Below are positions 8,498 through 19,851 of a DNA stretch of 40,057 bases, piece by piece. The notes beneath the pieces are model-generated. The model searched no databases. It had not been told where the DNA came from and worked only from the letters and a program-made list of their open reading frames with translations. The number at the start of each line of letters is the position of its first letter. Position 1 is the stretch's first letter. Where the stretch lies: NCBI GenBank assembly GCA_012837325.1, contig DURK01000068.1:1-40057 (forward strand). Direction: 5' to 3'. This stretch comes from Clostridiales bacterium (GTDB lineage Bacteria > Bacillota > Clostridia > Caldicoprobacterales > DTU083). The position numbers were made by a program, and so were the translations under genes.

Positions 8498-8517
8498 GAT
8501 AGTATAAAAACATCATG

Positions 8518-8583
8518 CTCATATAATCCTGATAATTGGTTCGGGGAGTTTCTACCAGGCAGCCGTAACTGCCTGACTATGAG
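8518..8583 (+). ncRNA. Purine riboswitch, guanine/hypoxanthine class
   Basis: The core is intact. P1 is CTCATA/TATGAG. P2 is CCTGA/TCGGG around a TAATTGGT loop. The junction AGTTTCTACC is followed by P3 CAGGCAG/CTGCCTG around CCGTAA, ending GACTATG. The C in GACTATG is the specificity base for guanine; the adenine class has GATTATG. Ligand binding would stabilise P1 and permit the downstream terminator at 8676-8723. Bases 8581-8588 of the 3' P1 strand can otherwise pair with 8688-8695 of the terminator arm. Confidence 0.93.
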
Positions 8584-8675
8584 TGAATTTTAGCTGCTTG
8601 CCGGTTTGGACTGACTTTTCTATTTTGAAGGGATTTGGGAAAAGATGGGTTTTAGCCGGTCTGTTTCCTATTAAG

Positions 8676-16256: not shown

Positions 16257-17477
16257 CTATAAACGGAAGGCTGCTATAATTGCTTCCGAAGCTGCCTTCT
16301 CATCCCTGCGGGGGATGACCAGGGATATCTTTGTTTCCGAGGTGGTAATCAGCTTGATCCCTATACCTTGTTTGGCCAAAACTTCAAAAACCCGTGCGGC
16401 CACTCCTGATTGTCTCTCCATACCGGGACCTTCCACTGATAATTGCGTAATATTTTCAAATACGTCGGTTTGAATTTCCGGATTGCTCGTTTCAACCTCG
16501 GCAATTGTATCCACGGCTTGCTTTAAGTTCTGGCCAGGCAGGGTAAAGGAAAGATTGATGTGGTCGTCAACAGGAGCAGTCTGGCTGATCATATCAATAT
16601 TAATGCCCTGTTTTGCCAGGCTGCCGAAAAGTTCAGCTATGAGCACAGGCTTATAGGGAAGCCGGTTCACAGTAACCATGACTTGTTCATTATTGGTATA
16701 GATGTGGGTTACGGCATCCTTATCCAGGAGAACATCAGTCATATCGTACAAGCCGGTTTGCTTCCCTGCCATATATTTGGCTGCTGTTAAAGCACCAAGT
16801 GCAAAAACCTGTCTGGAGTGAGCAGAATGGGTAACCTCAAGAATTTCATCCTGCCCGGCAAACATTACGGTATGTTCCCCTGCAATAGTACCTCCGCGGA
16901 CAGCGTGAATTCCAATTTCATTTATAGAGCGCTTGTCGTTTTTAGAGTGCCTGCCGTAAGAATAATGCTTGGAGCGCAGAAACACCTGATTCACAGCATC
17001 TGCCAGGGCATAAGCGGTACCGCTGGGAGCATCGATTTTCTGATTGTGATGCTTTTCTACTATTTCAATATCAAATCTGTCACCCAATACCGCAGCGGCT
17101 CTCTGTATCAGTTCATACATCAGGTTGATTCCAACAGATAGATTGGCTGCTCGAAAAACAGCTGTCTTTTTGGATTGCTTTTCGATTTGCTCCAAATCAG
17201 AAGCTGACAAGCCGGTAGTAGCAATAACCAGGGGTATGGAGGCTTGATCAACAAACTCCAGCAGCCTGGGAAGAGCAGCGGAGACGGAAAAGTCCAATAT
17301 CACATCCGCCTTTTCTTTTACAAGTGAAAGATCCTGGTAAACCGGGAAGGGGCTTTTATGAGAACCCGGATACCGATCCACTCCTGCTACAATTTCAATT
17401 TCCTTATCTGCTGCAGCCGCAGATGCAATCACCCGGCCCATTTTACCATTACAGCCATGCAGAATCAGTTTTATCAT
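16257..17477 (-). CDS. dapB: 4-hydroxy-tetrahydrodipicolinate reductase fused to a tandem ACT regulatory region
   Basis: DapB reduces the dapA product on the way to diaminopimelate and lysine. Residues 1-251 are a complete DapB: nucleotide-binding LHGCNGKMGRVIAS, catalytic EKHHNQKIDAPSGTA and the usual end GLYDMTDVL. Normal DapB stops there at about 250 residues. Here about 155 more follow, matching the aspartokinase C-terminal pair of ACT domains: YKPVLIAELFGSLAKQGINI with INLSFTLPG, then SGVAARVFEVLAKQGI with TTSETKISLVI. Such domains bind lysine or threonine in aspartokinase, so feedback control of DapB is inferred, not shown. ATG 17477 has GGAGTGAG upstream. It is the last gene of the asd-dapA-dapB operon. 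Confidence 0.93.
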   Translation of the reverse strand: MIKLILHGCNGKMGRVIASAAAADKEIEIVAGVDRYPGSHKSPFPVYQDLSLVKEKADVILDFSVSAALPRLLEFVDQASIPLVIATTGLSASDLEQIEKQSKKTAVFRAANLSVGINLMYELIQRAAAVLGDRFDIEIVEKHHNQKIDAPSGTAYALADAVNQVFLRSKHYSYGRHSKNDKRSINEIGIHAVRGGTIAGEHTVMFAGQDEILEVTHSAHSRQVFALGALTAAKYMAGKQTGLYDMTDVLLDKDAVTHIYTNNEQVMVTVNRLPYKPVLIAELFGSLAKQGINIDMISQTAPVDDHINLSFTLPGQNLKQAVDTIAEVETSNPEIQTDVFENITQLSVEGPGMERQSGVAARVFEVLAKQGIGIKLITTSETKISLVIPRRDEKAASEAIIAAFRL

Positions 17478-17500: not shown

Positions 17501-18379
17501 TTATAATAATCCATATTCCTTCATACGTTGTTTCAGGATCGTGAGGTTTGCATCCTCCATGTCAGTCAGAGGCAGACGCAGCGGTCCCATATCAAAGCCC
17601 ATCAGATTCATTGCGGTCTTTACCGGGATGGGATTGACTTCGCAGAACAGAGCATGAATGAGGGGAAGCAGCTTCAACTGAAGCGAAAGGGCTTCTTCTC
17701 TGTTTCCATTCAGAAACGTGCTAACCATCTCATGGGTATCTGCAGGAGCAATATTTGCTACGACGGATATGACGCCCTTTCCGCCGGCTGCAAGAAGCGG
17801 CACAACCATATCGTCGTTACCGGAATAAATATCGATTATATCTCCGCAGAGGCGAAACATTTCCAATACTTGAGCGATATCTCCGCTGGCTTCCTTTATC
17901 GCCTGGACATTTTTAATTTTGGATAGTTCGAGCATAGCCTGCGGTGAAATATTGTAACTGGTCCGGCTTGGTACATTATAAATGATGATAGGAATGGATA
18001 CCGCATCGGAAACACTGCGAAAATGTGCGATCAAACCTTTGGCATTGGTCTTATTATAATAGGGATTCACTGCCAGCAGCCCGTCTGCACCAAGCTCTTC
18101 TGCTTCGACGGAGGCCCGGATTACTTCTGCGGTGCAGTTGCCTCCCACACCTGCAAGCACCGGCAGTCTGCCCCCCGCTTTTTCTACAGTAAATCGAATG
18201 ACATCTCTTTTTTCCTGTTGTGTCATCGTAGTGGGCTCACCAGTTGTACCACAAGCCAGCAGGGCATCGGTACCCTGGTTGATTTGAAAATCAATTGCCT
18301 TACCCAGGGCATCAAAATTGACTCCGTTTTCTGTAAATGGAGTTACCATAGCAACACAGGAACCCGTAAATAAACTCAT
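17501..18379 (-). CDS. dapA: 4-hydroxy-tetrahydrodipicolinate synthase
   Basis: DapA condenses pyruvate with aspartate semialdehyde, the first step specific to lysine synthesis. The 292-residue TIM-barrel protein shows the threonine pair in ACGTTGEPTTM, the tyrosine of IIIYNVPSRTSYN and the Schiff-base lysine of VQAIKEASGDI. ATG 18379 lies seven bases after the asd stop, with GGAAGGTGA formed by the end of asd, so the two are translationally linked. Confidence 0.96.
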   Translation of the reverse strand: MSLFTGSCVAMVTPFTENGVNFDALGKAIDFQINQGTDALLACGTTGEPTTMTQQEKRDVIRFTVEKAGGRLPVLAGVGGNCTAEVIRASVEAEELGADGLLAVNPYYNKTNAKGLIAHFRSVSDAVSIPIIIYNVPSRTSYNISPQAMLELSKIKNVQAIKEASGDIAQVLEMFRLCGDIIDIYSGNDDMVVPLLAAGGKGVISVVANIAPADTHEMVSTFLNGNREEALSLQLKLLPLIHALFCEVNPIPVKTAMNLMGFDMGPLRLPLTDMEDANLTILKQRMKEYGLL

Positions 18380-18386
18380 TAAGCCG

Positions 18387-19406
18387 TCACCTTCCTTCCG
18401 CTTCTTTGCTTTCCCAATAGGAAATCAAGTGTTGTGCGATCTGTATGGTATTGGTAGCAGCTCCTTTACGGATATTATCCGCTACCACCCAGAGGTTTAC
18501 TCCGCTGTCTACGCTTTCGTCCCGGCGGACTCTGCCAACAAAGACATCGTCCTTATCCTGAGCTTGAATAGGCATAGGGTATTGATTCCTGGCAGGATCG
18601 TCTGCCAGAACCAATCCGGGGGCGTCCGATAAAATCTGTTTCAGCTCAGACAAATCAAATTCTCTTTCCAATTCCACATTGATGGATTCACTATGGCCGT
18701 GGAAAACCGGTACCCGAACGGTTGTTGCAGTGATGCGCAGGGATTGGTCACCCAGGATTTTTCTGGTTTCTTCGATCATTTTCATCTCTTCCTTGGTGTA
18801 TCCGTTGTCTAGAAAGACATCGATATGAGGCAGGCAGTTGCTGAAGATAGGATGCGGGAACTTTTTGGGAGCATGACCCTGAATGCCTTTCTCCAGATCA
18901 GAATAACCATCCATTCCTGCACCGGATACTGCCTGGTAGGTAGAATAGACAACCCTTTTGATTCCGTAATGATCATGCAGCGGCTTTAGGGCTACCACTG
19001 CCTGGATGGTAGAACAATTGGGATTGGCAATAATTCCTTTGTGTTTCAGGATATCCTGAGAATTGACTTCGGGCACAACCAGTGGAACCTGGGGGTCCAT
19101 TCTCCAAGCACTGCTGTTGTCGATAACTACGATACCTTTGGAAGCTGCAATGGGAGCAAACCTCCGGCTGGTTTCGCCGCCGGCAGAAAACAGGGCAATG
19201 TGGATATCCTTACCGTCAAAGCATGATTCGTTCAGTTCTTCCACTGTGTATTCACGACCCATAAAGGGAATCTTTTTCCCAGCGGAGCGTGCTGATGCAA
19301 AGAGATAATAGTTCGCTACCGGTAATTGTCTTTCCTCCAATACCTGCAGGAATTTTCGACCTACCATACCAGTGGCTCCAACCAGCGCTATATTATACTT
19401 TTTCAA
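18387..19406 (-). CDS. asd: Aspartate-semialdehyde dehydrogenase
   Basis: Asd reduces aspartyl phosphate to aspartate semialdehyde, feeding lysine and threonine synthesis. The product has the NADP-binding start KKYNIALVGATGMVGRKFL, the catalytic cysteine in ANPNCSTIQAVVAL and the substrate His in VPVFHGHSESINVE. I choose the start TTG 19406, seven bases after AGGAGG, giving 339 residues; the upstream frame to 19454 lies in the leader. It is the first gene of the operon, expressed from a lysine-riboswitch leader. No aspartokinase gene is adjacent. Confidence 0.95.
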   Translation of the reverse strand: MKKYNIALVGATGMVGRKFLQVLEERQLPVANYYLFASARSAGKKIPFMGREYTVEELNESCFDGKDIHIALFSAGGETSRRFAPIAASKGIVVIDNSSAWRMDPQVPLVVPEVNSQDILKHKGIIANPNCSTIQAVVALKPLHDHYGIKRVVYSTYQAVSGAGMDGYSDLEKGIQGHAPKKFPHPIFSNCLPHIDVFLDNGYTKEEMKMIEETRKILGDQSLRITATTVRVPVFHGHSESINVELEREFDLSELKQILSDAPGLVLADDPARNQYPMPIQAQDKDDVFVGRVRRDESVDSGVNLWVVADNIRKGAATNTIQIAQHLISYWESKEAEGR

Positions 19407-19490
19407 TGTAGTTCCTCCTGTCAAAAGATGTATGTCAGTAATCAGGATATGCAATGAATGGGCTGCAGTATTCTCCGTATAACTTGTATA

Positions 19491-19525
19491 TCAAAACAAA
19501 GCGGCTGATCTCCACCAGCCGCCCC
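19491..19525 (-). terminator. Terminator of the lysine riboswitch leader
   Basis: On the minus strand GCGGCTG and CAGCCGC form a 7-bp stem (19501-19507 with 19516-19522) around an eight-base loop, followed by TTTGTTTT. It lies about 85 bases before asd. Confidence 0.85.
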
Positions 19526-19822: not shown

Positions 19823-19851
19823 ATCATACCATTGCAGGCATCAAATGTCAA
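19823..19851 (-). promoter_or_regulatory. Promoter of the asd-dapA-dapB operon
   Basis: Minus-strand TTGACA (19851-19846), 17 bases, TATGAT (19828-19823), about 33 bases before the lysine aptamer. Confidence 0.88.

Follow-up and report, generated by a model that had tools for sequence, protein, structure and literature searches.

The window, by which we mean the whole analysed stretch of 40,057 nucleotides, carries on its reverse strand a lysine operon asd-dapA-dapB, the last gene of which is extended by a pair of ACT domains. A promoter-like site TTGACA-17-TATGAT (19823..19851), recognised by consensus match only, is followed by a lysine riboswitch aptamer RF00168 (19622..19799; 106.8 bits, E 1.1e-27), which forms the leader of asd-dapA-dapB-ACT, and by a hairpin resembling an intrinsic terminator (19498..19525) between the aptamer and asd. 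The gene of aspartate-semialdehyde dehydrogenase, asd (PF02774/PF01118), was delimited at 18387..19454; judged from the sequence of window positions 19404-19454, TTG at 19406 behind GGAGG is a likelier start than 19454. Next come dapA (DHDPS; 17501..18379; PF00701, 1.9e-89), with Lys at E. coli position 56, and the dapB-ACT fusion gene (16257..17477), all on the reverse strand. A further aptamer, that of a purine riboswitch (RF00167), was registered on the forward strand at 8499-8599, upstream of a purine biosynthesis operon. The original prediction, made from the letters of this DNA, had stated that the operon contains no aspartokinase (AK) gene, and this is indeed so: the two AKs of the genome lie elsewhere, one of LysC type on contig C185 and one of DapG type on contig C105, in a dpaA-dpaB-dapG cluster. 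Since this cluster is present, the genome has dipicolinate synthase; spoIVA is present as well.

The fusion gene is a single open frame of 406 codons. Residues 1-250 (16728..17477) correspond to DapB, the HTPA reductase: Pfam finds DapB_N at 2-112 (4.6e-25) and DapB_C at 116-250 (2.1e-46), while the NCBIfam model TIGR00036 scores 207.7 bits over residues 1-250, exceeding its curated cut-off of 122. Both the nucleotide-binding motif GxxGxMG (here GCNGKMG; G8, N10, G11, M13) and the active-site motif EKHHxxKxDxPSGTA (here EKHHNQKIDAPSGTA; E141, H143, H144, K147, D149, P151-A155) are present, and their residues are invariant in an alignment of 28 fusions. By domain and motif criteria the N-terminal part is a complete DapB, predicted to reduce HTPA/DHDP with NAD(P)H. 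Residues about 254-406, C-terminal to it, are a tandem ACT pair of the AK regulatory type; together with the stop codon they occupy the span 16257-16725. ACT1 (residues about 256-330; 16488..16712) bears INIDMISQTxP and has lost the DxPG loop of AKs, whereas ACT2 (residues about 340-406; 16260..16460) has the GPGMxxxxGVAA loop and the TTSETKIS strand. In the tail Pfam detects ACT_9 (346-404, 1.2e-27) as well as ACT_7 and ACT, the NCBIfam aspartate kinase model matches ORF residues 243-406 with its own residues 240-403 (E 2.6e-31), and in the PDB its sequence matches almost exclusively regulatory regions of AKs (3l76 with 9.9e-32, 2re1, 5yei, 2dtj), to which all significant matches belong. No AA_kinase catalytic domain was found by Pfam in the 406-residue ORF. 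Thus, the domain search upheld the proposal that DapB and an aspartokinase-like ACT pair share one gene, and no stop codon, named beforehand as a possible refutation, falls between the two parts of the frame. An assembly or frameshift artefact was ruled out, because the unbroken fusion recurs in many independent genomes, including those of the cultured Caldicoprobacter oshimai and C. algeriensis. The DapB-ACT architecture is real, and no description of it was found in the literature searched.

Structure prediction gave the same order of parts, DapB and then an AK-type ACT pair. The AlphaFold2 model has a mean pLDDT of 91.6, with most of the ACT part over 95, and a pTM of 0.71, the relative placement of DapB and ACT parts being uncertain. 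Residues 1-252 of the model match solved DapBs with Z up to 30.5 and the ACT pair matches AK regulatory regions with Z about 21; residues 254-406 superimpose on the C. glutamicum enzyme (CgAK, 3ab4_K) with rmsd 1.3 A over 150 residues and on the lysine/threonine-bound 3aaw_C with 1.4 A over 153 residues. Effector-site residues were mapped by alignment with 2dtj and the position of AKIII D340 by motif alignment, with site assignments taken from PMC10464499 and PMC8092979. The two AK effector sites have fared differently. At the first one CgAK D274, G277, A279 and N374 are replaced by Y275, V278, I280 and G373 of the window protein; D274, P276, G277, A279 and N374 are constant in 21-22 of 22 LysC-type AKs, and their equivalents are mostly changed in both fused and separate ACT pairs, the window protein keeping P276. 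The position of D340, which in E. coli AKIII binds lysine (PMC8092979), is occupied by K in the window and mostly by K or R in fused and separate forms. At the second site N293, D295 and Q299 of ACT1 and the loop residues G352, M353, G358 and A360 of ACT2 are kept, and the loop and strand motifs are conserved across both forms. DMISQTxP is a new signature, common to separate and fused forms and to AKs encoded within lysine operons. Because one site lost conserved residues and the other kept them, lysine should not be assumed as the ligand, and the site residues lend no support to either lysine or threonine. With the second site kept and the first changed, the module gives the impression of a functional sensor, though not of an unaltered LysC lysine/threonine sensor.

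The survey across Clostridia that had been suggested for this fusion revealed about 30 genomes with it, asd preceding it in every case and the order asd-dapA-dapB being usual; ACT_9/ACT_7 was detected in 28 of 28 fusions. It extends through families f1-f4 of the order to which the window genome belongs, with named Caldicoprobacter species among them, and to five more families of the class. In family f3 (L024-L028, L030) dapA lies outside the asd-dapB operon, and ACT2 of this family is the most altered, with TSE changed to TSN and G358 to R, so that it perhaps has another ligand or none. Many other Clostridia encode the ACT pair separately, immediately 3' of dapB and mostly behind a ribosome-binding site of its own, and such a gene after dapB was also registered in one genus of another class. 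An excess of in-frame adjacency among separate ACT genes (26/35) was set aside, since the search favoured in-frame cases. In three genomes (G048, G050, G058) the last gene of the same operon is a complete AK. In family f54 the operonic AK and a further stand-alone ACT-pair gene directly behind it (both within L236:2805-4517 and L237:2594-4321) look like separate alpha and beta genes; this family lacks dpaA. The attachment of the same ACT subfamily to dapB in two ways, fused or adjacent, permits a gene-fusion argument for a joint function.

The ACT pairs of the operonic AKs of G048, G050 and G058 are 40-45% identical to that of the window, while the window genome's own LysC reaches 33%. In the ACT-pair tree these AKs cluster with fused and stand-alone pairs, apart from ordinary LysC (99/99, and 100/100 in the second tree described below), and the LysC, DapG and 460-aa AK types fall outside the clade that unites operonic AKs with separate (99/96) and fused (87/81) pairs. 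With f54 added and long branches removed, support became 96/92 for the fused and 100/99 for the separate pairs, and the two together split from all AKs at 91/80. Copying of the ACT pair from the genome's own LysC was ruled out by the 33% identity and the different clade. The suggestion that the domain was captured from an AK that once stood in the operon gains support, as operonic AKs are the nearest AK relatives of the pair. Read most simply, the trees would tell of an AK in the lysine operon that lost its kinase domain once, of a single fusion to DapB and of several later losses; the DapB tree can be reconciled with this, the f50 fusions falling elsewhere in it. In near relatives of the window genome the ACT pair was lost at least 4 times. 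As to its remnants 3' of dapB, none were found in G001 and G003, and only chance-level matches in G015 and G009. Where the pair is present, dN/dS of the ACT part is 0.03-0.26, similar to that of the DapB part, which indicates purifying selection.

HTPA, the product of DapA, is a branch point from which DapB leads to lysine and DpaAB to dipicolinate, and lowering dapB raises dipicolinate (PMC9024752). Under sigma-K of B. subtilis dpaAB and dapA are expressed and dapB is not (PMC9024752). In the class survey, dpaA (threshold E <= 1e-30, with all matches scoring below the family's curated cut-off) was present in 81 of the 88 genomes whose ACT pair is linked to DapB versus 137 of the 303 others (Fisher odds ratio 14, a class-wide count that ignores phylogeny, with ACT-dapB adjacency inspected for part of the genomes). 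As dpaA occurs in 137 genomes devoid of the ACT pair, the pair is not needed for dipicolinate synthesis. Stronger than this count is what the window genome's own family shows, where dpaA was found in 7 of 7 fused genomes and in none of the 4 whose DapB ends at residue 250 (G001, G002, G003, G009). The dapG locus of G001, G002 and G003 (L231, L233 and L232, respectively) is otherwise conserved and only dpaA-dpaB is missing from it. That asporogeny led to the loss of the ACT pair in these near relatives finds no support, given that spoIVA is kept in all four of these genomes. On the asd-dapA-dapB tree joint losses of the ACT pair and dpaAB fall at three separate places, and by a simple branch count the co-loss near the window genome has a chance of about 6e-4. 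One counterexample is G015, where the ACT pair was lost and dpaA kept; host-associated lineages may also have lost both for other reasons. Among the seven ACT-positive genomes without detected dpaA (G209, G177, G382, G045, G096, G165, G365) the first three are further exceptions, while the last four have the most diverged ACT pairs, as if constraint on these sequences had been released. Four genomes (G016, G018, G053, G546) have dpaA and a single PF00701 protein, a DapA co-operonic with DapB, and because this lone dapA shares an operon with dapB the sigma-K solution of B. subtilis is closed to them.

Several explanations of the ACT pair can be weighed against these data. It may make DapB subject to plain end-product inhibition by lysine or meso-DAP, replacing a missing inhibition of DapA and having no tie to dipicolinate. 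His or Glu at E. coli position 56 of DapA marks lysine-sensitive enzymes and Lys or Arg insensitive ones (PMC5109050), so that the window DapA is predicted to be insensitive by its Lys56; none of the 25 DapAs encoded beside a fused DapB has His there (K16, R7, Q2), and the operon is under a lysine riboswitch. However, next to separate ACT genes it is His in 30 of 30 cases, which does not suit a simple substitute for DapA feedback, and Lys or Arg persists there in relatives from which the ACT pair has gone. Since the pattern follows clades, the contrast in residue 56 was not built upon, and DapA insensitivity was rejected as an explanation of the ACT pair. Plain feedback also leaves the co-loss with dpaAB unexplained, and we consider it rather unlikely.

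Another explanation is that the pair joins AK in trans in the manner of a beta subunit, linking the enzyme of flux entry to DapB instead of regulating DapB. AK regulatory pairs do exist as separate beta subunits of alpha2beta2 AKs (PDB 2dtj, 3aaw; PMC10464499), and the extra ACT-pair gene of f54 stands immediately 3' of the operonic AK. Nevertheless, the neighbour of the ACT pair is dapB and not AK in nearly all genomes, and LysC-type AK is absent from G007 and G011, which have the DapG type only, and from G053, G213, G151 and G049, which have the 460-aa type only; we regard such a partnership as improbable. A ligand-free role of the pair, as a passive leftover or as a structural extension for stability or oligomerisation, would agree with its repeated losses in near relatives, with its strong divergence in f3, f50 and f83 and with the missing DxPG loop. 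Against it speak purifying selection comparable to that on DapB, the loop and strand motifs that fused and separate forms alike conserve at one effector site, and persistence of the separate gene in many families, and we regard it as improbable.

The reading that we prefer, and to which we would give even chances, is that of the ACT pair as an allosteric module of DapB acting at the HTPA branch, where lysine and diaminopimelate synthesis parts from that of spore dipicolinate. Counted in its favour are the twofold linkage of the ACT subfamily to dapB, the lysine riboswitch of the operon, purifying selection, the confident model, one kept effector site, Lys56 of DapA, the association and co-loss with dpaA, and the genomes with a single DHDPS-family gene. 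The data themselves show the fusion, how it is conserved, where it came from, its predicted fold and its genomic ties to dapB and dpaAB. An AK of the lysine operon probably lost its kinase domain and its regulatory half remained, becoming either a separate gene beside dapB first or directly the C-terminal extension of DapB. We infer that the pair most likely dimerises through ACT-ACT contacts on the DapB tetramer, that a pathway small molecule, at first guess lysine or meso-diaminopimelate, would bind the pair, and that its binding would lower HTPA reductase activity. Control would then fall after DapA, where dipicolinate synthase shares HTPA, and this position would allow synthesis of lysine and diaminopimelate to be reduced while HTPA still reaches spore dipicolinate. 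Direct feedback on DapB would be consistent with the repeated ACT-dapB linkage and with the predicted lysine insensitivity of DapA. More tentatively, one can suppose that DapB, together with an ACT pair that is joined to it or supplied as its own subunit, partitions HTPA between lysine/diaminopimelate and spore dipicolinate across many Clostridia, unlike the sigma-K arrangement of B. subtilis, and that the altered pocket, with basic K/R at the position of AKIII D340, may sense a ligand other than lysine or threonine.

Aspartokinase and DapA are the known points of feedback on lysine synthesis; DapB, to our knowledge, is treated as unregulated, substrate effects aside. If the preferred reading is true, regulation of DapB would place control at the very branch where spore dipicolinate departs, would account for organisms in which one dapA co-transcribed with dapB supplies both products, and would make the enzyme a target for engineering lysine or dipicolinate production. 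The tie to dipicolinate, absent from the original prediction, would give a physiological reason for regulating DapB rather than DapA, and the separate-gene version brings the idea within reach of testing in culturable relatives.

Compared with known systems, the ACT pair of the fusion resembles AK regulatory regions (C. glutamicum LysC beta 2dtj/3aaw, Pseudomonas 5yei, Thermus 2dt9) in having two ACTs in the same order, with about 30% identity, rmsd of 1.3-1.7 A over about 150 residues and equivalents of their Q298, D294, S381 and E382. Unlike a monofunctional AK, the fusion has no kinase domain and is joined to a reductase; its equivalents of the DxPG loop, A279 and N374 are changed, and S298 and P302 of DMISQTxP stand instead of L/I and G. 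Like ordinary DapBs (E. coli 1arz, Vibrio 5us6, S. aureus 3qy9) it contains the whole catalytic enzyme, 38-39% identical and with intact motifs, but it runs on for 156 residues past the usual end, and the solved DapBs that were found carry no regulatory domain. The closest AK kin are the operonic AKs of G048, G050, G058 and f54 (dapB-dapD-AK), which share DMISQTxP and have likewise lost DxPG, yet, unlike the fusion, retain the kinase domain and remain separate from DapB.
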